IMG/VR virus record: IMGVR_UViG_3300032236_000773
Location: 1 to 43,828 of that record
Reading direction: 5' to 3' (one strand)
DNA from: a virus
DNA length: 43,828 bases
Below, one piece after another: positions 6,694-43,557 of the stretch. The notes under the pieces are model-generated. The model was given only the letters and a program-made list of their open reading frames with translations, did no database searches and was not told the origin of the DNA. A program made the translations under genes and the position numbers. The stretch's first letter is position 1. Each line of letters starts with the position of its first letter.

Positions 6694-9414
6694 TTAGCTA
6701 CCCCTATGTAATATTTTTACTTTTTGTAATTGTGTATTTACTTTAACACCATCTAATAATACCGCTACTTTACCATTTGTTAAATCTTCTCTTAATCCAG
6801 TAATTTGTTCTAATAATTTATCTGATGAACTTTCTTTTCCACCACCAAAAATAGCATTTCCTGCACCTGCTGCAAATCCCATAACTGCTAACACAGGCAT
6901 CGCAAATGTGCTAGCTGCTCCTAATGCAATTAATGCAACTGATACAGCTGTTATTGCTGCTGCCAATCCAAACATAGGAGTTATCATATTTAATAATGGT
7001 GCCATATTTTTTGCTAATTGTGGTAATACACCAATCATTGATGAAATACCGGTTACAACATTTGTAAATGCTTCTGAAAATGCTTTTAATCCATACCCCG
7101 TAACTGCAATTGCTGTACCAAATAATAATAATATACCTGCTGCAGGAACTAATACTTCTGAAGCTGCTGTTAATGCTGAACTAATTGCAATTAACTGAGG
7201 TGTAAATAATTTTAATGCTAATCCTAATGTTCCTATTACTACTGCTGCTTTACCTAATGAACTCCATTCTACGGTATTAAATCCTTGAAATGCTTTTACT
7301 AAAATATATAATGCTACGGCAAACAAAACGATTGCAGCTGCTGCTATTAACATTGATTTTACATCAAATGCTTTTGTACCAGTCGATGCTTCTGTTGCAC
7401 CTTTAGATATACTACTTCCACCTAAATCTTTTGTTTTTTTAGTTGCTGCATCTAATGGTACTGTTCCACCTTTTGTTCTAATCATTTTACCTTGAGGTGA
7501 ATTTGCATCCCACATTTTTCCAGTTTTATCTGCTACCATGTTAGACCCACCCATACCAAATAAATTTGCAATCTTACTAACACCTAATTTAGCAGATTCT
7601 GCAACCCACATTCCCATTGCTTTTACACCATCCCACATTTTAACTACTAAACCACCTACACTATATTTGGTTCCCATCAATGCTAAATTCATTGCACCTG
7701 CACCTTGTATTACTAATCCAAATCCTTTAGCTAATTTACCCCCAATTGTATTACCCATATATTGTAAAAGTTCTGCTGTTCTACTATATATCTGATTTCC
7801 CACACCATTCATACCATTTAAGTCTTGTTGATGTGCCGCCATTTTTTGTAATTCATCTACTGAAACACCCAATGCTTTAGCCGTTGCTAACCTTTGGTAA
7901 TAATCCATTTTATTAAATTCTGCTATTCCACCTACTGCATTAAGTGCTTCTTTCATTGAACCTTCTATATCACCATTATATGCTAATTCTCTTGCTTTAT
8001 TTAAATTTATATTTTTACCCAAAAGAACAGATGCTTCCATTTCATCTTGTACTGATGTTTGGTAATCTAATAAATGGTCTGTTAGTTTAGCTGCTGTTGC
8101 TAAATTTATACCTAGCACTCCTGCTGCTACCGCTGCTTTTCCTATATTTTTTCCTGTACCATCCGTATATTTTGCAATAAACTCACTATTTTGAGCCATA
8201 TCTTGGAAAGCAGCTGCTGGCATTACACCATTTGCTATTGCTAATTGTTTTGCATATTCTCTAGTATTATTACCTACTTCTTGACTATTACCACTTAAAT
8301 ATCCAAATTCAGTTGCTAAATATCCAGCTTGCTCTGCACTTAAATCATAGTTTGCTGCTAACGTTCCCGCATCAATTGCACTTCCTAATGTAACTTTATT
8401 AACATTACCTAAATTTTTAGCCATTTCAAGAACGGCTTTACCTGCAGTTTCACCTAAAATTTTATCAATCAATAATGCTTCGGTTTTTATACCAACCATT
8501 GTAAATAAACCTACACCCATTGATTTACCTATCTTACCAAATCCATCTAAAATTTGCCCTACTATATATGCTATTACTCCAACTGCACCTTGCCAACTAC
8601 TAAGGAACATTTTTACACCATCTTTTACTTTTAAGATAGTTTTTTGCATTCCTTTTAAGTTTTCTCTAAGTTCTTCTTGTATTTCTTTTTGTAATTTAGA
8701 TTGAGATGATAGGTCGTCTGCTACTGCCAATTCATCCTTTTTACCTTTAATAATATTTTCTAGTATTTCTATTGATCTTTTATCTAATTTACCTTTTTGT
8801 TTTATTTTTTCAACTTGTTGTTCGTATAAACCAATTTCATCAGTAATTCTAGATTTTAAAATTGCTCTTTTTTCTACATCTTCTTCTGATAAACCTGCTA
8901 ATTCTGATGCTTTTAAACTTATAGATGCCATACCATCAGAAAAAGCTGATATTTGTTCTAATGCTTTTTTTCTTTGTAAGTTGGTATAATTTTCACTACT
9001 TGCAATTGATGCCGATACATCTTTTAATTTAAGACTATCCAATGCAATATTTTGTAATTCTGTTTTGCTACTTTTATATACTGAACTTAAACTACTCCAC
9101 GCATCAACCGATGTTTCTACATTCTTTTTAATATTAGCCTGTGTATCATCTAATTTTTTTGTAACGGCGTGTAATTTACTTGCTTCATTAGTTAATCTTT
9201 CGTATGCTGAATAGATTTTTTCTAATTGTGCTAACTCCGTTGTAGTTAATTTACCTTTTTTAGATAATAATTCGGTTTCTTTTTGATGTAATTTATTTCT
9301 TTTTTCCTGATTTTTAATATATGCTTCTATTAATTGGACATCTCTAGTTTCCAAACTAATATCAGTAGTGGATAATTGTGTTTTTGGAATTGTATTTCTT
9401 TTACTATTTGCCAT
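6694..9414 (-). CDS. Tail tape measure protein
   Basis: This is the longest protein of the baseplate operon (906 aa) and has tape-measure architecture. The N-terminal 30-260 is charged and coiled-coil-like with many Lys/Glu heptads. The centre is Ala/Gly-rich. Several long hydrophobic stretches follow at about 268-292, 688-709, 722-738, 752-775 and 815-848. The C-terminus is short and polar (SSDKLLEQITGLREDL onward). Tape measure proteins set tail length inside the tube and often form or enter a membrane pore during infection, which fits the hydrophobic segments. It follows the gp26/gp51-like pair and a 66-aa gene and precedes the tube initiator, as expected for a tail module. No peptidoglycan-hydrolase motif is apparent. 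The leader holds AAGG close to the ATG but no full SD. Confidence 0.85.
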   Translation of the reverse strand: MANSKRNTIPKTQLSTTDISLETRDVQLIEAYIKNQEKRNKLHQKETELLSKKGKLTTTELAQLEKIYSAYERLTNEASKLHAVTKKLDDTQANIKKNVETSVDAWSSLSSVYKSSKTELQNIALDSLKLKDVSASIASSENYTNLQRKKALEQISAFSDGMASISLKASELAGLSEEDVEKRAILKSRITDEIGLYEQQVEKIKQKGKLDKRSIEILENIIKGKKDELAVADDLSSQSKLQKEIQEELRENLKGMQKTILKVKDGVKMFLSSWQGAVGVIAYIVGQILDGFGKIGKSMGVGLFTMVGIKTEALLIDKILGETAGKAVLEMAKNLGNVNKVTLGSAIDAGTLAANYDLSAEQAGYLATEFGYLSGNSQEVGNNTREYAKQLAIANGVMPAAAFQDMAQNSEFIAKYTDGTGKNIGKAAVAAGVLGINLATAAKLTDHLLDYQTSVQDEMEASVLLGKNINLNKARELAYNGDIEGSMKEALNAVGGIAEFNKMDYYQRLATAKALGVSVDELQKMAAHQQDLNGMNGVGNQIYSRTAELLQYMGNTIGGKLAKGFGLVIQGAGAMNLALMGTKYSVGGLVVKMWDGVKAMGMWVAESAKLGVSKIANLFGMGGSNMVADKTGKMWDANSPQGKMIRTKGGTVPLDAATKKTKDLGGSSISKGATEASTGTKAFDVKSMLIAAAAIVLFAVALYILVKAFQGFNTVEWSSLGKAAVVIGTLGLALKLFTPQLIAISSALTAASEVLVPAAGILLLFGTAIAVTGYGLKAFSEAFTNVVTGISSMIGVLPQLAKNMAPLLNMITPMFGLAAAITAVSVALIALGAASTFAMPVLAVMGFAAGAGNAIFGGGKESSSDKLLEQITGLREDLTNGKVAVLLDGVKVNTQLQKVKILHRGS

Positions 9415-13730: not shown

Positions 13731-13740
13731 TATAAATATA
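13731..13740 (-). promoter_or_regulatory. Putative promoter motif TATATTTATA before the 190-aa gene
   Basis: The coding strand reads TATATTTATA, 17 bases before the ATG and right after the tube terminator at 13751-13779. The order terminator, motif, gene supports a transcript start. Confidence 0.55.
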
Positions 13741-13800: not shown

Positions 13801-14289
13801 TTAGAATTCTAAGATTGCGTAATCATAAGTAATAGTTAATGTAATCATAACTGGATCATTTGAACTCCAATCTACATCACCAAACTCAGCTGCTGAAATC
13901 CATGCTCCTACTAATTTCCATTGTTCTACTTTATCACCCACAGGTCCTAACATATAGAAATCGATATTCTTTTTGTAGAAATCTGCATAACCGTCTCTAC
14001 CAGTGATAGATTCGTGAGATGTTCTAATCCACTCCATTACCGATTGTGCACCACTTGGTACAATTGGATCGTATAATGTAATAGTAATATCAGTCCAATT
14101 TGATTTACCTTTAATTTTTCTCTTTAAGTTGATATGATCTAATTCTACAACTTCACTTTCTAACTTAGGTCTGTTTGCTGTTTTTATCATGTAAGATGGA
14201 ATACCATCGATTTCCATAATAAAACGGTTTGCTAACTTTGGTTCAAAGTTGGTATAAAATATCTTATCAAATGATAATACGTCAGCCAT
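13801..14289 (-). CDS. 19: Tail tube protein gp19
   Basis: This 162-aa protein polymerises into the rigid inner tail tube through which DNA passes. The sequence fits the T4 gp19 family: FEPKLANRFIMEIDGIPSYM (15-34), the charged loop KRKIKGKSNWTDITITLYDP (56-75, slightly longer in full), VMEWIRTSHES (84-94), DFYMLGPVGDKVEQWKLVG (110-128) and SAAEFGDVDWSSNDPVMITL (132-151). Length is right for gp19 (T4: 163 aa). It directly follows the sheath, the usual order. The leader has AAAGGAG followed by 8 bases before the ATG, one of the best SD-like sequences in the window, and a motif variant (14311-14320) further up. Very high expression is expected. Confidence 0.93.
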   Translation of the reverse strand: MADVLSFDKIFYTNFEPKLANRFIMEIDGIPSYMIKTANRPKLESEVVELDHINLKRKIKGKSNWTDITITLYDPIVPSGAQSVMEWIRTSHESITGRDGYADFYKKNIDFYMLGPVGDKVEQWKLVGAWISAAEFGDVDWSSNDPVMITLTITYDYAILEF

Positions 14290-14310
14290 TGTTTATTCTC
14301 CTTTACTTAT

Positions 14311-14331: not shown

Positions 14332-16575
14332 TTATGCGTTAAAAGTTGCCCCAGTTGGTAAAACATTGAAATCAATTTGAATGAATTCTGCAGTTTTAGT
14401 TGGTTGTAAGAATATTGCACCTTTTAAGATGTTTCTATCGATTACGTCTGGAGTGTTATTTGTTTCATCCATTACAACTTTGAATGCATATAAACCTTGT
14501 CTTTGTTGAATATTCTCTAAATAAGGGTTTACTGTATTTAAGAATTTAGTTCTTGTATCTGTTGTGTTTTGTTCAAATACTAAATATCTTGAAGTTGAAG
14601 CGATGTATTTCTTAACTGTGATTAACAATCTTCTAACATTGATTCTATCTAATGCTGAAGGTCTACTTTGTAAAGTTTTTTGTCCAAATGCTACGATACC
14701 TTGTCCAGGGAATTGAGCGATTGGATTTACTTTTCCTTCATATAATTTATCTCTATCAGAGTGTGTTAATCTATCAAATACTGCTACTGCACCAGTGATA
14801 CCACCTCTATTCAAACCTGCAGGTGCAAACCACTCAGCTGATGTAGCATCGTTTGCTGCATAAACTCTTGGTAATAAAACTGATGGTGGAACTGCGATTA
14901 ATTTGTTTGTGTTTGTATCAATTGTTTTAACCCAAGGATAGTAAACTGCTGTGTAGTTAGTATCTAATGATTCAGCTACTGCTACCGCATCTGCAATACC
15001 TTGTGTACTATTAGTTGCCAAAGCAGTTGCATCCATAATATAGAATGTATCAGCTCTGTTTTCAACCATATCCATTGCGTATTGTGTTACCGCAGGATGG
15101 TCCATATGGTTAACACCCGGAGTTACTAATAAATTAATATCCCACTCATCTACGTTTGATAATGCATCTAAACATTTTTTATATGCCAAAGTACCATTTG
15201 AGTTACTTGTAGAACAATCTAATCCTTGTGCGTTTGTTGCACTAATATCTGCACCTTTATAAGAAGGGATAGTTGGATTAATACTATCAAACCCACCTTG
15301 GAAAGCTACATTAAATATTCTTTTAGCAACATCTGTGGATAATGAACCAGTTAATGGTAAAGATGCTGTTGTATCTAAACCAAATGGAGTATTAGCACCT
15401 GTTGTTGCGTATCTTGGAATTGGTTTTAAATAAATTTCATTATCAGTATTACCTTCTAAATCAATACCAGCATAAAAATTAGTAGAACCAGTTGCATACG
15501 TTACTGCAGGTATTAAGTTATCATCACCATCAGTTGCAAATGGAACTGTATACGAATCGTGTCCATAAGGTACTGCTACCACAGGATACATATCTGAAGA
15601 TACTGCTTCTATTCTAATATATTTAGATTTGTTACTCCAGTCACCATGTGTTGTTACCTTACCATATTCATCAATTTCTTGATATACATCACCAATTACT
15701 CTACTAATATAATTTACCGAATTAGGTTCTAATGTTAAATTATTATATTGTTCTAAAACGGTTTGTCTTTTATCTGTATCATTGTATGCTCTTACATATA
15801 AAGAAAAAGTACCATAATCAGAACCATTAATTGAACCTGCAGGTTTTATATTACCAATAGTTACTTTAAATCTTTTATTTTCTACATTACCATCTGATAA
15901 GGTATTGATTGTAAATAATGGGAATCTATTACCACCAATTTCTTGAGATAAAATTGTTGGAGTTGATGCGTAAGTTGCCACCGCATTTGTACCATGTGTA
16001 TAATTTTGGCGTTGAGTATATGAACTAATTGTTACATGTCCATCAAATGTAATACCACTATTTTTAAAGAAAGCGTATGAATATCCACCCACACCACCCA
16101 ACGGAGATGTACCAAATACATTTTCAATATTTGCATTTGAAATTGGATTTACTGATGCTGTTACACCACTTACTACAAAACTACCACTTTGTAAATTGGT
16201 AAATACACCAGGACTACCCATACCAATTTTATCATTGTAGATTGCACCTACAATTTTTTGTGTACTACCCGAAGTTGCATATATAATAACTGTATCTGCA
16301 TCTTCGTATCCACCGATACCCGCTGTTCTACAAATAGTTACTAAACCAGTCTCTCTTAAATAGTTTTGAGCGGTTAATTCTGTGTAATATGTTCCATCAG
16401 CTGCACCAAAAATATCTTCTAATTCAGATGGTGATGTTACGATTGTTGGTTTAAACGCTGGTCCTTGTTTGAAAGGTCCTACGATTGCTCCACCAATAGC
16501 TCCAACACCTTGTGCTATGTATGATAAATCGTTTTCTCTTGTAAACACACCAGGTGATACTAATTTTTCAGCCAT
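14332..16575 (-). CDS. 18: Contractile tail sheath protein gp18
   Basis: This 747-aa protein forms the contractile sheath around the tube. The N-terminus SPGVFTRENDLSYIAQGVG, then GGAIVGPFKQGPA, then a Ser-Glu-Leu stretch FG is typical of phage sheaths. The C-terminal domain, which holds the conserved contact and contraction core, has NVRRLLITVKKYIASTSRYL, then FEQN, then QRQGLYAFKVVMDETNNTP and a final beta strand AEFIQIDFNVLP. The central part is variable and Thr/Gly-rich, as expected for the exposed domains; the length exceeds T4 gp18 (659 aa) mostly there. It is followed by the tube gene after 42 bases. An AAGGAG lies 10 bases before the ATG and a motif TATATTTATA at 16616-16625. Confidence 0.95.
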   Translation of the reverse strand: MAEKLVSPGVFTRENDLSYIAQGVGAIGGAIVGPFKQGPAFKPTIVTSPSELEDIFGAADGTYYTELTAQNYLRETGLVTICRTAGIGGYEDADTVIIYATSGSTQKIVGAIYNDKIGMGSPGVFTNLQSGSFVVSGVTASVNPISNANIENVFGTSPLGGVGGYSYAFFKNSGITFDGHVTISSYTQRQNYTHGTNAVATYASTPTILSQEIGGNRFPLFTINTLSDGNVENKRFKVTIGNIKPAGSINGSDYGTFSLYVRAYNDTDKRQTVLEQYNNLTLEPNSVNYISRVIGDVYQEIDEYGKVTTHGDWSNKSKYIRIEAVSSDMYPVVAVPYGHDSYTVPFATDGDDNLIPAVTYATGSTNFYAGIDLEGNTDNEIYLKPIPRYATTGANTPFGLDTTASLPLTGSLSTDVAKRIFNVAFQGGFDSINPTIPSYKGADISATNAQGLDCSTSNSNGTLAYKKCLDALSNVDEWDINLLVTPGVNHMDHPAVTQYAMDMVENRADTFYIMDATALATNSTQGIADAVAVAESLDTNYTAVYYPWVKTIDTNTNKLIAVPPSVLLPRVYAANDATSAEWFAPAGLNRGGITGAVAVFDRLTHSDRDKLYEGKVNPIAQFPGQGIVAFGQKTLQSRPSALDRINVRRLLITVKKYIASTSRYLVFEQNTTDTRTKFLNTVNPYLENIQQRQGLYAFKVVMDETNNTPDVIDRNILKGAIFLQPTKTAEFIQIDFNVLPTGATFNA

Positions 16576-16615
16576 TTTATTTGTTCTCCTTATAAATTAT
16601 GTTATAATATTCTAA

Positions 16616-16625
16616 TATAAATATA
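16616..16625 (-). promoter_or_regulatory. Putative promoter motif TATATTTATA before the sheath gene
   Basis: The coding strand reads TATATTTATA, 40 bases before the sheath ATG, with TTTG just before it. A second, weaker TTTATA lies immediately before the SD-like AAGGAG. Confidence 0.45.
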
Positions 16626-16956: not shown

Positions 16957-18606
16957 TTAAACGTATGAAGTTCTTGTGTGGAAGTTATTATATATGTTTA
17001 AAATTTCAGTTGAACTTAATGCTCTTTGATAGAATAAGAATCCACCTAAAGCACCAGTATTGTTTTGCATCAAATAAATATCTGCAGTACCTGTTGTAGC
17101 TGCTGAGGTTGTAGTTGATGTTGAAACTTGTGTACCATTATTATAGAATGTAGTTGTACCATTACCTGCTGTAACTGCTAACATATGCCAACCAGTTAAT
17201 GTAGTTGTTGTTGATGTTGCATTACCATTTGGTGTTGATGTTAAACTCATTGTAGTTCCACTCGCTGCAAATGTATAATCTGTACCTCTACTTAATATAT
17301 TACCAGCACTACCATTTACTAATGCAATAATAGTATATCCTGCTGTTGTTGTGTTAAAGTTAGCATTACCAGTACCACTACTATATGCCTGTTCTTTAAT
17401 ACCATATTTACCACTAGCAAATTGTAATGATTTTGGTGGTCCTGCATTTAATGTTGGTGCAGTAATTGCTGGATTTAAAGTACCTCCTGTTAAATTCCAA
17501 CCGGTAGAATAACCTGCTAAATCATTAAAGTTAGTATCACCATTATTTACATATGAAGCCGTAAAGTTAACATCACAATAACATACTAAGTTAGTCCAAG
17601 GTATTGGTGCTGTTGCACTACCTTTATTATGTGAAACAAATCCGTTAGATAAATAAGTATGTGCTACATCTACGGTAATTGTTGCAATTTCTAATGTTTT
17701 ATTAATGTATTCTATTTTTTCTACCAATACATCTTCAACCAATCCTGTTTCTGCATTATATTTTACAATCTTATCACCTTCTGTTAAATCACTTGCTCTT
17801 GTAAATTGATATGTTTCAGTTATGTTATCCCATGCAAAGAAAGGATGTGCCATTGTTGTTTTAATTTGACCATAATTAACCGATACATATTCATCAATAA
17901 ACGAAAAATATACATTAGATACATTTGCATCTACAATTTCACCATTAGAACCTGTTTCAGAATACCACCAATACCATTCACTTTGATCATTTTCAGGTAA
18001 CCAATTAGGCATTCCAGTAGGTACAAATGTTTTAATCACATCACCAACATACAAATCTGCTGCTTTTATTGTTGAACCATCTGCCATTAAAATGTCAGTA
18101 TCAGTTGCTACACATAATGCATCAGAGTTAATTCCGTTGTATGAATCTACTGAATAAATTGTTTTAGTAGATGTTGTATTATAGTTAGTTGCATTTACAT
18201 TGTATCCATCTGCATATGTTACGGATAGGGTTGTACTATTACTACCACTATAAGGTGTAGTTCCCAAATTTTTAGCAGTGATTGCAGTTGTTGAACTTTT
18301 TGTACCAATACTAAAATAAGTAGAATCACTAATTGTAATAGTATAATTTGCTGCTACGTTTTTTACTCTATTATCAAATGCCAATCCTTGTGTAGTAAAT
18401 GCAACAACAACGTTTTCAGCTGTGTTTTCTACTATATAAGTAAATGGTTGAGTAATTGCTAAACTATCAAATGCGAATGAACTCATTGATACTGCTGTTC
18501 CTGCTAAGTTATTTGCTGCATTTAAAGATGAAGATACTGCACCTGCTCTTGCTGTACCACTCCAAGCACCATATAATGCTCCTAAACTTAAATTTGTTTT
18601 TGCCAT
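16957..18606 (-). CDS. Virion-type protein with an internal Hint (intein-like) domain and a LamG-like C-terminus
   Basis: This 549-aa protein has three parts. Residues 1-164 are Ala/Ser/Thr-rich and beta-like, and resemble a virion surface domain. Residues 165-327 are a Hint domain: it opens with CVATDTDILMADGS (165-178), has the LYVGDVI strand (185-191), the block B signature TMAH followed by PFFAWD (251-260), DLTEGDKIV (273-281), and ends AHTYLSNGFVSHN (315-327). Residues 331-549 resemble a LamG/concanavalin-like sandwich (GWHMLAVTAGNG, TTFYNNGTQVS, GALGGFLFYQRAL), suggesting carbohydrate binding. The residue after H-N is Lys328, not Cys/Ser/Thr, so normal protein splicing is not expected; autocleavage as in bacterial intein-like domains is more likely. 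AAGGA is 7-8 bases before the ATG, a grouping shared with the core virion genes. Confidence 0.8.
   Translation of the reverse strand: MAKTNLSLGALYGAWSGTARAGAVSSSLNAANNLAGTAVSMSSFAFDSLAITQPFTYIVENTAENVVVAFTTQGLAFDNRVKNVAANYTITISDSTYFSIGTKSSTTAITAKNLGTTPYSGSNSTTLSVTYADGYNVNATNYNTTSTKTIYSVDSYNGINSDALCVATDTDILMADGSTIKAADLYVGDVIKTFVPTGMPNWLPENDQSEWYWWYSETGSNGEIVDANVSNVYFSFIDEYVSVNYGQIKTTMAHPFFAWDNITETYQFTRASDLTEGDKIVKYNAETGLVEDVLVEKIEYINKTLEIATITVDVAHTYLSNGFVSHNKGSATAPIPWTNLVCYCDVNFTASYVNNGDTNFNDLAGYSTGWNLTGGTLNPAITAPTLNAGPPKSLQFASGKYGIKEQAYSSGTGNANFNTTTAGYTIIALVNGSAGNILSRGTDYTFAASGTTMSLTSTPNGNATSTTTTLTGWHMLAVTAGNGTTTFYNNGTQVSTSTTTSAATTGTADIYLMQNNTGALGGFLFYQRALSSTEILNIYNNFHTRTSYV
17626..18114 (-). 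other. Hint / bacterial intein-like domain inside the 549-aa protein
   Basis: Codons for Cys165 to Asn327. Visible features are the N-terminal nucleophile Cys165, the T251-x-x-H254 motif that activates the first peptide bond, and the C-terminal His326-Asn327. The +1 residue is Lys328. There is no room for a homing endonuclease between the two halves (about 163 residues in all). Confidence 0.8.
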
Positions 18607-18617
18607 ATTATTTTCCT

Positions 18618-19622
18618 TTAACTATTATAAATATCTAATAAATTATTAACCCATTTGTTTCTGTCCGAATACTCCAACATATATTCTTTTAATTTGTTGA
18701 ACCAATGTTTTTTATATTCGTAATCACTATTCTTAATCCATTGTACCGTCTGTTCAAATTCTGTTTTAGTTTCTGCTCTAAACGGATATGTCCAATCTTT
18801 CATCCAATCTTTACTTAATATAGGTAGTTTTCCATAATCAACCGCTTGAAATATTGAATATCCAAATGGTTCATAATTAAAACAACTATGTGAAATTCCC
18901 CAATCTAATCGATAAAACCAATCTAACTTTTGATAGTCAAACATATATCGTTTAGCTCGTTTGAAATTCACCCCATATCCTTTCTCCCACACATTATTTA
19001 GAATTTTTAAAGTTGTAAATAAATAACAATCTATATTTTCTAAATACCAAACTCTTTTTCTAGTTTCCGTTCTCGCTGCAAATCCTACTTTTGTACTATC
19101 ACTCAATTCTAAATTATTTGTAAACTCATAATAATTAGGAATATCTATGAAATCGTACTCTGCATGCTTTGGAGTTTGAAATAATCCTATCCAAATTCTT
19201 TTCTTAGCTGATTCTATTATATCGGTTTCCCATTTTGAATCTGCTCCGTAGTGTTGTATACCAGGTGCTTCTGAAAATAGTCCAGCTTTAAGAGACATAT
19301 CAATTGAATTATGCATTACATAACTCTCTATCTTGTCTAAATTGTTTAGGATTGCTGAGTTAGGGTAGTAGTGTCCGTGTAGTATGTGTATTCGCCGAGC
19401 ACTATTTATAAGTTCATCGAACTTTTCTTTATCATCCACTTGCCAATAAATTTCGAGGGGGAACTTGTCCCCCTCGAAATCATCTGGTCTTTTTCTATGT
19501 ATAAGTAGGATAGGTTTTACTTTTAAGTGAGGAACAACGTATTCTACAAAGTTATTCACCCAAACATCACTACCAGCACCTACTTTATTTCCGAAACCTG
19601 TTGTATAATATACATCATACAT
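18618..19622 (-). CDS. GT-B glycosyltransferase (GT4-like)
   Basis: This 334-aa protein resembles family 4-type glycosyltransferases. The N-terminal half starts with a strand and a Gly-rich loop (GFGNKVGAGSDVWVNNF, 9-25), followed by HILHGHYYP (79-87). The C-terminal half contains HSCFNYEPFGYSIFQAVDYG (245-264), equivalent to the E-P-F/W-G...EA...G nucleotide-sugar motif, then KLPILS. The usual EX7E pair appears here as E251 and Q259, a conservative change that may affect the activity. No membrane segment is seen. The gene follows the 1245-aa S74 fibre by 2 bases and precedes the Hint protein by 11, so it is in a virion-protein block; it may modify fibre or host surface sugars. A 12-bp perfect hairpin lies inside its coding sequence at 19450-19480. 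Confidence 0.75.
   Translation of the reverse strand: MYDVYYTTGFGNKVGAGSDVWVNNFVEYVVPHLKVKPILLIHRKRPDDFEGDKFPLEIYWQVDDKEKFDELINSARRIHILHGHYYPNSAILNNLDKIESYVMHNSIDMSLKAGLFSEAPGIQHYGADSKWETDIIESAKKRIWIGLFQTPKHAEYDFIDIPNYYEFTNNLELSDSTKVGFAARTETRKRVWYLENIDCYLFTTLKILNNVWEKGYGVNFKRAKRYMFDYQKLDWFYRLDWGISHSCFNYEPFGYSIFQAVDYGKLPILSKDWMKDWTYPFRAETKTEFEQTVQWIKNSDYEYKKHWFNKLKEYMLEYSDRNKWVNNLLDIYNS
18626..18635 (-). promoter_or_regulatory. Putative promoter motif GATATTTATA before the Hint protein gene
   Basis: The coding strand reads GATATTTATA, 19 bases before the ATG. It overlaps the last codons of the glycosyltransferase gene (stop at 18618), so a new transcript would start inside that gene's end. 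Confidence 0.5.
19450..19480. repeat. Perfect 12-bp hairpin inside the glycosyltransferase gene
   Basis: ATTTCGAGGGGG (19450-19461) pairs without mismatch with CCCCCTCGAAAT (19469-19480) across a 7-nt loop. It encodes FEGDKFPLEI near residues 49-58 and uses G/C-rich codons (GGG, CCC) that are rare elsewhere in this A/T-rich window. On the coding strand TTTATT follows. It is terminator-like but lies inside an intact frame. Confidence 0.85.
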
Positions 19623-34941: not shown

Positions 34942-34951
34942 TATAAATATG
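34942..34951 (-). promoter_or_regulatory. Motif CATATTTATA close to the 131-aa gene
   Basis: The motif is only 5 bases from the ATG. If it is a -10-like element, the mRNA would be nearly leaderless. It may also be a chance match. Confidence 0.3.
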
Positions 34952-38566: not shown

Positions 38567-38576
38567 TATAAATATC
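38567..38576 (-). promoter_or_regulatory. Putative promoter motif GATATTTATA before the neck operon
   Basis: The coding strand reads GATATTTATA, 13 bases before the ATG of the gp13-like gene, with AAGGA between the two. Confidence 0.5.
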
Positions 38577-39689: not shown

Positions 39690-40196
39690 TTAGTGAACTA
39701 TACCTAAATTATCACCATTTCTATAAATATCACCTGCTACTAAACCACCACTTAATGCTGCTGCATTTGATGCGTAGACTGGAATATTTGCAATGTTTAA
39801 ATGATTTACACCACTTGTTCCAATTACAGGTGTAGCTGAACCACTACCAAATTTAATATATCCTTTAGTTGCATCTTCAACACCACTAACTTGCATTGTA
39901 TTTACAATATTAACATCACCTATCCATGAATCATCACCAACTTTAAAGTTAGTTCCGTTTCCGTTGTTAGTTGCATAGTATTTATCTTGTGATGCATAAC
40001 TACCACTAACACCAATTTGATTTTGTAAAGCTGCAATATCTGCATCAGTTGCTAAACCATTACCATCAACAGTCGTTTGTAATGCCGATACTGCTGAAAA
40101 TCCCATTAATCCAGTTGTTGAATCTGTAACTAATATTTTTGTTGTTGATACCGGTGTTACATTTGGTAATTCCGGATAAATTCTACGAGTTCTCAT
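39690..40196 (-). CDS. Small virion protein next to the capsid gene
   Basis: This 168-aa protein begins RTRRIYPELPNVTPVSTTKI, has a central region of small residues and beta strands, and ends ALSGGLVAGDIYRNGDNLGIVH. The terminal element A-L-x-x-G-L-x-x-G-D-I/L-Y-R is frequent at the C-terminus of phage structural proteins and lets the module be recognised, but the function is unknown. It stands directly after the major capsid gene as its own transcription unit, with motif, AAGGAG 11 bases before the ATG and strong terminator. High expression and a capsid decoration, head fibre or vertex role are plausible; none is shown by the sequence. Confidence 0.7.
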   Translation of the reverse strand: MRTRRIYPELPNVTPVSTTKILVTDSTTGLMGFSAVSALQTTVDGNGLATDADIAALQNQIGVSGSYASQDKYYATNNGNGTNFKVGDDSWIGDVNIVNTMQVSGVEDATKGYIKFGSGSATPVIGTSGVNHLNIANIPVYASNAAALSGGLVAGDIYRNGDNLGIVH

Positions 40197-40222
40197 TTTG
40201 AATATTTCTCCTTATTGTTTTA

Positions 40223-40298: not shown

Positions 40299-41918
40299 TT
40301 ATAATAAGTTTAAGTCACCGATAACTACTTTACCGAAGAATTCAGGTCTAACTAGTTTCTTAGCGTATCTAGTCATAACACCTCTTCTTGGTGTAAAGTT
40401 ATCTGGATCATAAACTAAAGGAGTTAAAATCAATGGAACATAAGGAGCGTAAACGGCACCAGTTTCCAAGAAGTTATTTCCTTTATAACCCATTAAGATT
40501 GTGTTTTCTGTCATGTAAGGGTTTTTGTAAACAGTATATCTGTTTGCAATTGAACCTACTTGAGTTACACCAGCTGCAAATTGCTTAGCATCTTTATCAG
40601 CAGATACAGTGAACGCTGGGATTGATTCTAAGATTGTACAAACGTCAGGAGAAGCTACCATAAAGTTAGCACCACCTCTCATTGTTAACTGATGGATTTT
40701 GTTAGATACTTTGTTTAATTTAGTACCTAAAGTTTGGAACCAAGTATTTCTTGTATAAGCAGAAGCTGCAGATACGTCAGGATCGATTTCGAAAGCACCA
40801 GTTGCAGTGTTGTATTCGTTACCGATTTTTAATGACCAATACTCAGTAGTTAACGCGTTAGCTTTTAACATATCTAAGATTTCTAAGTCGATTTCTAAAG
40901 AGATGTACTCAGATAACATTGAAGTTAATTCAGCTTCAGCATCAATTGAGTGATAAGCGTTTAAATCTTGCGCCAATTCAGGAGTCCACACTGCTTTCAA
41001 CTTACGAGTCTTAGCAACGATTGCCTCTGATTTCAATTCAAGATCAACTTGAGGAATGTTCAAGTTTGTACCACCGTTAGGGTTGTTGATTGGATCTCTA
41101 TCTTCAAAATCACCTCTGTTGTATGCAGTTGGTTGAGCTTCGTAAGTTAATACGATATCAGCTGAAGTTGCACTTGGAGCGATGAAATGTAAAGTTGTAC
41201 CATTTAATTTGGTAAACTCAGGATAGAAACCACCAGCTAAACCAGAACCAGAGATAAAGAATGCTTTAACAGCATTGTAATCTGCAGTTGCAGGAATAGT
41301 GAAAGATACATCTTTTAAACCAGATACACCAACATAATTAGCGTTCCAGTTAATTGAAGAAGATGCAGCTTGTGCGATAGTTACAGTACCACTAGTGATA
41401 GTTGCGAACTGATCGTTAACTGTGTAACTATATCTTCCGTTACCATATAAACCACCTGTTGGTGATTGAGTTGATCCTAATTTGTTTCCAGCAGGAGATA
41501 AAGAATCTTTACCAACTGTTCCAGAATTACCATATAATGAATCACCTTTAGAGAAAGCTGCTACATTTGAACCATATTTGAAGTCCATGTAGAAAATCAA
41601 ACCTGAAGGTAAGTTCATTGGTTGTACAGAAACGAATTCTTTTGCAGCGATTTCGCCGAAAATTCTTCTTACTAATGGTAAAGCTACACCAGACCATTCT
41701 TCTGAACCAGCTGAAGTACCTGTTGCAGTTGCTTCATCTAATAATTGTTTTGCTTGATTCTCTAACAATACAGCCATAGCGTGTTGTTGAGGTTTAGCTT
41801 CGATTCCTTCTAAAAGGCCAGTTTTTTCCCATTTGTTTTTTAAACCTCTAGTTTGCTCAAGCATAACTGAAGTTGGGTTTTTGCCTTCCATAAGTTTTGT
41901 TAAATCAAAATTTGCCAT
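40299..41918 (-). CDS. 23: Major capsid protein gp23
   Basis: This 539-aa protein builds the head shell. Matches to the gp23 family: the N-terminal pro-region with the helix HAMAVLLENQAKQLLDE (46-62), SGVALPLVRRIFGEIAAKEF (76-95), VSVQPMNLPSGLIFYMDFKY (96-115), then LKAVWTPELAQDL and YISLEIDLEILDML, and the C-terminal FTPRRGVMTRYAKKLVRPEF. T4 gp23 (521 aa) loses about 65 N-terminal residues to the prohead protease gp21, which cuts after L/I-x-E. Here L60-D61-E62 followed by Ala is a good candidate site. The gene follows gp22 by 25 bases and ends at a strong terminator. AAGGA lies 9 bases before the ATG. Codon use is less A/T-extreme than in the accessory genes, as expected for a very highly expressed gene. 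Confidence 0.95.
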   Translation of the reverse strand: MANFDLTKLMEGKNPTSVMLEQTRGLKNKWEKTGLLEGIEAKPQQHAMAVLLENQAKQLLDEATATGTSAGSEEWSGVALPLVRRIFGEIAAKEFVSVQPMNLPSGLIFYMDFKYGSNVAAFSKGDSLYGNSGTVGKDSLSPAGNKLGSTQSPTGGLYGNGRYSYTVNDQFATITSGTVTIAQAASSSINWNANYVGVSGLKDVSFTIPATADYNAVKAFFISGSGLAGGFYPEFTKLNGTTLHFIAPSATSADIVLTYEAQPTAYNRGDFEDRDPINNPNGGTNLNIPQVDLELKSEAIVAKTRKLKAVWTPELAQDLNAYHSIDAEAELTSMLSEYISLEIDLEILDMLKANALTTEYWSLKIGNEYNTATGAFEIDPDVSAASAYTRNTWFQTLGTKLNKVSNKIHQLTMRGGANFMVASPDVCTILESIPAFTVSADKDAKQFAAGVTQVGSIANRYTVYKNPYMTENTILMGYKGNNFLETGAVYAPYVPLILTPLVYDPDNFTPRRGVMTRYAKKLVRPEFFGKVVIGDLNLL

Positions 41919-41943
41919 TTTGTTTTTTCCTTATTTGTTTTTG

Positions 41944-43140
41944 TTATTTTAAAATTCCAGCTAACTCTTTAAATCTGTTTGCGTAAGTTGTACTTTCACT
42001 AACGATTTCTTTTTGAGTTGATGGTTTTGTACTAGCTTGTACTCTTGAAGCTCCTTCAGCCATTACTTTTGTTGTTTTAGTAGTAGATGTTGAATTTGCG
42101 AACTTCATTGATTCAGCTAATGTTGAGTAAACTAATTTTACTTCTCTTACAGTTGTTGTTCTATCTAAAGAATCAATAACCTTAGATTTTTGCTCATTTG
42201 TTAAGTTATAACTTCTGAACAATTTGTTAGAGAATAATAATTTAGCGTTTAAAAGATTTACTTCATTGATTGTAGATCTCAAAGTTTTAATTACAGAAAT
42301 AGCTTCTTTTAATTCAGCTTGTAATTTTTTTGTTTCTTCTACTTTCTCTTTTTCTTCTTCTTCAGCTTTTTCTTCTTCTTCTAACTCTTTGATGATTTCT
42401 TCAATGTTCATGTCATCATCTTCACCCTTTTCTTCACCTTCGTGTTTAGCGATGGTTGCGTTAGGGTCATCAGCGTGTTGAAATACATCTACTTCATCAG
42501 CTGATTCTTCTTGATGTTGGTCATGTCCCATTGCATCGTAATCATCTTGAGATTCCATATCATCAGAACCACCATGTAATTCGTCTTCCAACTCCTTAAT
42601 GATTGCTTCTAAATCTAAGTCATCTTCTGATTGTTGATCGTCACCAGCTTCATAATCATCGTGTTCAGGTTGAGCACCATGTTCTGAATCGTCACCATCA
42701 GCAAAATCTTCAGTAGCGAATTTAACGTCACCAGATGCTAAATCTTCATCTTCACCATTTGCTTCAGAGATAGACTTTTCAAATGTGTAGTCTTCTACTT
42801 CTGCTTCAGGTTTTTTAGATGTTGATGTTACATCAGCTGCACCTAATTCATCTTCTGCACCAGCGTTATGCTCGCTTGGTTTTTTGTTGTTTTGTCCCGA
42901 TGTTGTACCACCGTTACCCGCTCCAATGTTTGAAGATGAATAATCTTCTTCCATTTTTTCAGCGTCTTCTTCTTTGTCATCAGCCATATCTTCAGCTTCT
43001 GCACGTAATTTTTGAGATAACATTGATTTCAATCTTGGAGTAAATGCTTCCTCTAATTGAATCTTTGCATTTGCTAATGCAGTTTCTCTTACGGCTTTGG
43101 CGTCAGCGATAGCTTCTTTCAATAATTTTGAACTTGCCAT
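41944..43140 (-). CDS. 22: Prohead core scaffolding protein gp22
   Basis: This 398-aa protein is the likely internal scaffold on which the capsid assembles and which is later degraded. The N-terminal 45 residues are helical and basic/acidic mixed (LKEAIADAKAVRETALANAK). Residues about 50-270 are extremely acidic, with long Glu/Asp runs. Residues 296-345 hold the conserved part LLNAKLLFSNKLFRSYNL, EQKSKVIDSLDR and VREVKLVYSTLAES, typical of T4-like core proteins. The C-terminal 50 residues are Ser/Thr-rich. It precedes the capsid gene as in T4, but no protease gp21 gene is adjacent upstream; instead the bS21 gene is found. AAGGA is 9 bases before the ATG, at the end of a structured 177-base leader. 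Confidence 0.88.
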   Translation of the reverse strand: MASSKLLKEAIADAKAVRETALANAKIQLEEAFTPRLKSMLSQKLRAEAEDMADDKEEDAEKMEEDYSSSNIGAGNGGTTSGQNNKKPSEHNAGAEDELGAADVTSTSKKPEAEVEDYTFEKSISEANGEDEDLASGDVKFATEDFADGDDSEHGAQPEHDDYEAGDDQQSEDDLDLEAIIKELEDELHGGSDDMESQDDYDAMGHDQHQEESADEVDVFQHADDPNATIAKHEGEEKGEDDDMNIEEIIKELEEEEKAEEEEKEKVEETKKLQAELKEAISVIKTLRSTINEVNLLNAKLLFSNKLFRSYNLTNEQKSKVIDSLDRTTTVREVKLVYSTLAESMKFANSTSTTKTTKVMAEGASRVQASTKPSTQKEIVSESTTYANRFKELAGILK

Positions 43141-43163
43141 TTCGTTATGTCCTTTTTGATTTG

Positions 43164-43235
43164 TTAAGCCATTGTAGGATAGGCGGCTTAAATAGAATTT
43201 TGATATTCTTTCGGAACTCTATATAGAGATAGAGT
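43164..43235 (-). promoter_or_regulatory. Structured leader of the gp22-gp23 transcript
   Basis: The leader has two further perfect hairpins after the terminator-like one: a 7-bp stem 43216-43222 with 43229-43235 (ACTCTAT/ATAGAGT, 6-nt loop) and a 7-bp stem 43164-43170 with 43185-43191 (TTAAGCC/GGCTTAA, 14-nt loop), the latter ending just before the SD-like AAGGA. A TATATTTTTATA-like A/T run lies further up (about 43285-43310) and may be the promoter. Function unknown; RNA stabilisation or translational control fits the most abundant virion message. Confidence 0.5.
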
Positions 43236-43261
43236 ATTCATCGAGTATCTTAAATATTAAA

Positions 43262-43282
43262 ATTCACCCATTATGAGTGAAT
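43262..43282 (-). terminator. Weak terminator after the bS21 gene
   Basis: A 6-bp stem ATTCAC/GTGAAT (43262-43267 with 43277-43282) with a 9-nt loop is followed on the minus strand by TTTTAAT. It lies about 36 bases after the stop of the bS21 gene. The stem is A/T-rich, so termination may be partial. Confidence 0.5.
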
Positions 43283-43317: not shown

Positions 43318-43557
43318 TTAAAGTCCGATAAATTTTTTAGGAATTTTTTTCAAATTTAGAAATTCTAACTGAGCTTTTGCTGTTCTCAATTGCTTTCTAA
43401 CTGCTTTTTCCTTTTGTACTCTCTTCTTTGCTGATGGTTTTGTGAAGTATTTTCTATCTCTCAATTCCTCAACGGCTTTAGAATCTTGCCATTTTTTCTT
43501 TAACTTTTTTAGAGCTTGATTTAAGTTATCTTCTCTAATGTTGTCGATTATAATCAT
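43318..43557 (-). CDS. rpsU: Phage-encoded ribosomal protein bS21
   Basis: This 79-aa basic protein matches small-subunit ribosomal protein bS21: ALKKLKKKWQ (15-24), ELRDRKYFTKPSAKKR (31-46), QKEKAVRKQLR (48-58). Length of the core equals the bacterial protein; residues 60-79 are an extra tail (QLEFLNLKKIPKKFIGL). bS21 sits next to the 3' end of 16S rRNA on the 30S platform and helps mRNA start-site selection. Phage copies are known in several large or marine phages. In Flavobacterium a Tyr at position 54 (from memory) helps hide the anti-SD; an ungapped alignment puts Arg54 here. The leader is AAATAAAAACAAAAGTT with no SD. It immediately precedes the capsid unit, so may be made early or late; its timing is not evident. 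Confidence 0.92.
   Translation of the reverse strand: MIIIDNIREDNLNQALKKLKKKWQDSKAVEELRDRKYFTKPSAKKRVQKEKAVRKQLRTAKAQLEFLNLKKIPKKFIGL

Follow-up and report, generated by a model that had tools for sequence, protein, structure and literature searches.

Why phages carry genes for ribosomal protein bS21, and what such a protein does to the ribosome it enters, is the question raised by one short gene in a 43.8-kb virus record (the window, meaning the whole stretch of DNA analysed here). The published bS21 proteins of Bacteroidetes phages are thought to mimic the block that the host places on the anti-Shine-Dalgarno (anti-SD) sequence of its own ribosomes. In Flavobacterium johnsoniae, Tyr54 of bS21 makes a stacking contact with A1534 and sends the 16S 3′ tail toward the platform (McNutt et al. 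2023, PMC9976891); in the Y54A mutant, strong-SD reporters rose by 70% to 3-fold and a weak AGGA reporter gave little or no response (PMC9976891). Residue 54 was aromatic in every case in a survey of Bacteroidetes-phage bS21s, which were said to mimic the host block; for clades a-e, incorporation into host ribosomes during the late stage of infection was proposed (Chen et al. 2022, PMC9723584). Since the published phage bS21s are all aromatic at this position, the arginine of the window protein departs from the published picture. It is a natural variant, and the genomes of its relatives carry the signature expected if the block were undone, with SD sequences concentrated in late genes.

The phage bS21 protein

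The window belongs to a T4-like myovirus with a Gp23-family capsid, tail sheath, tube, baseplate hub and fibres, and nearly all of its genes lie on the minus strand. The open reading frame at 43318-43557 (-) is complete, with 79 amino acids from its ATG, and is a bS21 homologue as the preliminary description had recognised: it matches Pfam Ribosomal_S21 (PF01165) with E=2.5e-10 and 40.3 bits, against a cut-off of 27, and its PHROG match is ribosomal protein S21. The gene is co-directional with the structural operon and has a start without an SD (AAATAAAAACAAAAGTT-ATG). The two best solved homologues were 9i5v (2.7e-8) and the F. johnsoniae protein (7jil; 1.1e-6), the others starting from 4e-4, and a search of named phages with the window protein (tblastn) returned no match. 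An AF2 model was of moderate confidence, and Foldseek gave only weak bS21 matches with it.

Alignment with F. johnsoniae bS21 (7jil) runs without gaps through residue 54, where an AGA codon (43396..43398, -) places Arg opposite Tyr54; the gap-free stretch of 58 residues described earlier holds to this point, and HMMER alignments gap just after it. The described 20-residue C-terminal extension was also recovered, as residues 60-79 (43321..43380, -), ending in IPKKFIGL and conserved in the window clade. Both Arg54 and the tail, ending in IPKKF/YIGL, are kept in eight IMG/VR relatives with bS21 identities of 80-89%, and in the near clade position 54 is almost always Arg. The aromatic residue 54 that marks Bacteroidia-type bS21 is replaced by Arg in the window protein, which up to residue 51 scores 58.1 bits with the Bacteroidia profile versus 42.5 bits with that of the Arg54 class, a margin that is modest for the window protein but wide for some relatives, L028 among them. 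These profile scores suggest that a Bacteroidia-type protein changed at residue 54, and not that the protein came from the Arg54 class.

SD sequences in late and early genes

SD motifs were counted as GGAG, GAGG or AGGA at positions -20 to -3 and compared with shuffled upstream sequences. The SD rate was 0.38 in the window (0.09 expected) and about 0.6 in the relatives L009 and L014 (0.1 expected); T4, used as positive control, gave 0.60 against 0.15 expected. The same motif count detected no enrichment in Flavobacterium phage immuto or Maribacter phage Colly, and immuto, without any SD enrichment, rules out the notion that SD use is general in this phage lineage. The preliminary description had foreseen SD-bearing phage messages without searching for them.

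Eleven of the 25 late virion genes of the window, assigned by homology class, carry an SD, where 1.8 would be expected, and these include genes for scaffold, capsid, tail tube and sheath, all on the minus strand. The acidic protein encoded directly upstream of the capsid gene (41944..43140), without a family match in Pfam or PHROG and regarded as a putative gp22-like scaffold from its position only, is preceded by AAAGGA (43150..43155), and the major capsid gene of the Gp23 family (40299..41918) by AAGGA (41928..41932). Further sites are AAGGAG (40208..40213) before a 168-aa late gene (39690-40196), AAAGGA (18614..18619) before the late gene 16957-18606, AAGGAG (16586..16591) before the tail sheath gene (14332-16575) and AAAGGAG (14298..14304) before the tail tube gene (13801-14289). 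Several of the window SDs are only moderate in strength.

Neither the window nor any of its closest relatives is a complete genome, and early genes were read from sister contigs without the bS21 region. Two of these (G326 and G327), with a polymerase 84-88% identical to that of the window, extend beyond the tail genes and enter the replication region, where 2 of 54 genes have an SD motif, no more than chance. The upstream sequences of these replication genes contain few G and are A-rich around -13/-12, like those of immuto and Bacteroidia-phage genes, and the tube, sheath and 16957-type genes of the same contigs keep their SDs. Concentration of SDs in late genes was also seen within single contigs of Arg54 phages (G011, p=7e-5; G318, p=0.01); G010, G016 and other Arg54 phages showed the same direction, with a weak and non-significant late enrichment, and L422 showed none despite its Arg54. 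The implied SD spacing in the window clade clusters around 5-7 nt, largely as in functional SDs; in immuto no motif was found at a spacing of 4-10 nt.

Across the 26 Arg54 phages examined, no bS21 gene is preceded by an SD, and in 22 of them an SD stands before the following conserved gene, which is assumed to encode the scaffold. Because bS21 must be made before any switch of the ribosome can take place, an SD-less bS21 gene is what a switch model needs. Late genes with SDs, early genes without them and a putative trigger gene independent of them were all found.

Sequences between the bS21 and scaffold genes and other features of the window

A terminator-like hairpin follows directly after bS21 (43262..43282, -), and by eye the relatives have a hairpin of other sequence at the same place. 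Between bS21 and the start of the scaffold gene lies a strongly conserved structured RNA leader (43157..43254, -) with three helices derived from 18 relatives, in which 14 of 20 pairs have changes on both sides. Pairing was preserved in 93% of cells; shuffles gave 79%, and sliding the alignment left no more than 47%. The leader occupies the same place in L033, L034, L036, L037, L042, L058, L006 and others, and a model of it matched upstream of the scaffold gene in left-out members, clearly in phage Mel-JY01 (E=1.8e-4) and L049 and weakly elsewhere; an Rfam search of the bS21-capsid region returned nothing credible. As the leader also occurs in phages without bS21 on the fragment, including L037, L055 and L056, a role as a bS21 operator would not be enough to explain it.

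The sequence ATATTTATA occurs at 12 sites in the window, all on the coding strand, versus 5 expected on both strands (for example 13731-13739, 16616-16624, 34942-34950 and 38567-38575). Most of these sites are found at a short distance before late genes, and a late promoter is possible. A gene of the phytanoyl-CoA dioxygenase family (804-1613, -; PF05721, 4.4e-22) lies in the interval between the tail genes and the beginning of the replication region.

Residue 54 and SD use across phages

Phages were sampled by capsid and by Bacteroidia bS21, with residue 54 read from the alignment (L029 and L003 being one contig). In the 69 loci with a Bacteroidia-type bS21 and an aromatic residue 54, SDs preceded 40 of 924 genes, which is chance (42.5 expected), and only 4 of 154 structural orthologues. 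In the 25 loci with a Bacteroidia-type bS21 and a non-aromatic residue 54, they preceded 133 of 420 genes (35.4 expected), 3.8 times the expectation. A simple rank test of residue 54 versus SD use, which ignores kinship, gave 1.6e-11; on the capsid tree, with about six independent pairs and thus too few contrasts, a sign test ran in the right direction and was not significant. The preliminary description had proposed ribosomes that favour SD-bearing phage messages, and this proposal is partly supported: the SDs exist, cluster in late genes and follow the identity of residue 54 where the phage bS21 is of Bacteroidia type, and the published Y54A mutant gives a matching gain; it did not gain significance in the phylogenetically controlled test.

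Arg54 and late SDs might occur together without a causal link, if the phage bS21 served ribosome supply or assembly, residue 54 were relaxed, and the SDs acted otherwise, for example with the structured leader or as inherited strong starts. Such independence would account for L037, L055 and L056, which keep the scaffold SD and the RNA leader with no bS21 on the fragment, and for exceptions that run both ways on the capsid tree; the L067-L081 group has late SDs in general and no bS21 on its fragments, and the Tyr54 phage L049 has a weak SD enrichment. Against it stand a position 54 that is almost always Arg in the near clade rather than random, a motif spacing that is largely that of functional SDs, and the chance-level SD use of phages with aromatic Bacteroidia-type bS21s, structural orthologues included, and we judge it decidedly improbable. 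In a 252-kb relative (G011; L121), about 100 kb separate the Arg54 bS21 gene (211157-211315) from the capsid gene; a fragment on which no bS21 lies near the capsid is therefore no proof that the phage lacks it.

Residue 54 and SD use in bacteria

The bacterial rpsU loci (L139-L188 and L278-L337) contain two bS21 types split along Bacteroidota classes. In the class that includes the named Flavobacteriales MAG G001, residue 54 is Tyr nearly throughout, with one His, one Arg and three unclear rows that are Tyr by eye, whereas in the class of G188, of the same phylum, it is Arg or Lys in 30 of 30. Genomes with Arg54 tend to show SD enrichment and those with Tyr54 mostly do not, with G092 as an exception and with SD samples too small for significance in some Arg54 genomes. 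Residue 54 and SD use therefore go together in bacteria too. One Bacteroidia genome with Arg54 (L324, from G385) offers a natural test case.

Relatives and host

By capsid and terminase, the nearest named phages are Flavobacterium phage immuto (NC_055915; 53%), Mel-JY01 and an uncultured 484-kb phage, with Rhodothermus phage RM378 as a more distant named relative. Immuto, which has no bS21, is the nearest cultured relative with a secure host. Four of the 11 genome-collection contigs with relatives, originating in two MAGs, carry a Flavobacteriales label and others have unrelated labels; these are hints rather than proof. When 395 Bacteroidia genomes were searched for spacer-like matches to 20 kb of the window, no spacer match emerged, the hits being weak or of low complexity apart from related phage contigs in G001 and a Tyr54 rpsU of 75% DNA identity over 99 nt. 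Taken with the bS21 type and the composition of the early genes, the relatives point to a host that is probably of the Bacteroidia type.

Alternatively, the anti-SD of the host could already be accessible, for example in a member of the sister class with native Arg54 or outside the Bacteroidota, in which case the phage bS21 would simply match that of its host and the SDs would be an ordinary adaptation. Precedents exist, as the sister class with native Arg54 uses SDs, and so does Mel-JY01 (L006, recorded from Microcystis), a member of the wider clade with a Lys54 bS21 at 7152-7379 and, close by, the RNA leader. SDs are also used by phages that combine Tyr54 with other bS21 types (L090, L092 and L105); their proteins score poorly as Bacteroidia type, and the idea that any Tyr54 phage lacks SDs is false in the wide clade. 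However, Mel-JY01 also uses SDs in its replication-side genes, fitting a different kind of host, and the SD-less, G-poor early genes of the window clade are unlike those of Mel-JY01, T4 and Arg54 bacteria. Before residue 54 the window bS21 also resembles the Bacteroidia profile more than that of the Arg54 class, and immuto infects Flavobacterium. An already accessible anti-SD in the host is considered unlikely.

A putative ribosome switch

The explanation that we favour, with moderate confidence, is that the phage Arg54 bS21 retunes the host ribosome toward SD-bearing late messages. A T4-like myovirus infecting a host with a sequestered anti-SD, presumably of the Bacteroidia type, would make its own Bacteroidia-type bS21 with Arg in place of Tyr54. 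The SD-less bS21 message would be translatable by the unmodified, SD-blind host ribosomes, and the protein would then enter 30S subunits. By analogy with Y54A, Arg54 could not stack on A1534 as Tyr54 does, and the 16S 3′ tail would be freed from the platform to pair with SDs. Late virion messages with SDs, such as those for scaffold, capsid, tail tube and sheath, would gain from the altered ribosomes by selective translation, and early messages, needed before the switch, would remain SD-less and A-rich.

This switch model draws on the late SD enrichment, the SD-less early and bS21 genes, the association with residue 54 in phages and bacteria, the Bacteroidia type of the protein and the published Y54A mutant. 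Counted against it are the weak or absent late enrichment in G010, G016 and L422, the SDs in phages without bS21 on the fragment, the weak enrichment in the Tyr54 phage L049, the reading of early genes from sister contigs, the non-significant test of independent pairs and the published AGGA reporter. The fuller proposition, on which we are evenly divided, is that of a natural viral switch in which a bS21 without an aromatic residue 54 would turn SD-blind Bacteroidia ribosomes into SD-reading ones, with an SD-marked late gene set evolved to match and the SD-less bS21 gene as trigger. Residue 54 together with SD usage provides a simple genomic marker for further cases, and the idea that a phage bS21 re-specifies the ribosome becomes directly testable in F. 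johnsoniae, for which strains and reporters already exist.

Comparison with known systems

Immuto shares with the window the same capsid and terminase families (53%) and has a stated bacteroidete host, but differs from it in having neither bS21 nor late SD enrichment. The bS21 of Pelagibacter phage HTVC008M, a likeness in that it is a phage bS21, enters E. coli ribosomes according to the citation of Mizuno et al. (2019) in PMC9723584; its host is not one of the Bacteroidota, and there would be no known sequestered anti-SD to release. The Y54A and bS21-depleted ribosomes of F. johnsoniae (PMC9976891) resemble the window case in that the aromatic side chain at 54 is lost in a Bacteroidia-type bS21; Y54A is a laboratory Ala mutant with a measured strong-SD gain, whereas the window protein is a natural Arg variant with a conserved C-terminal extension, known from sequence. 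Clades a-e of Chen et al. (PMC9723584) are large myoviruses in which, as in the window and L003, the bS21 gene has terminase, portal, protease and capsid genes nearby. In those clades bS21 and the structural genes occupy opposite strands and residue 54 is aromatic, whereas in the window, L002, L003 and L014 they share a strand, and the window combines Arg54 with SD-bearing late genes.
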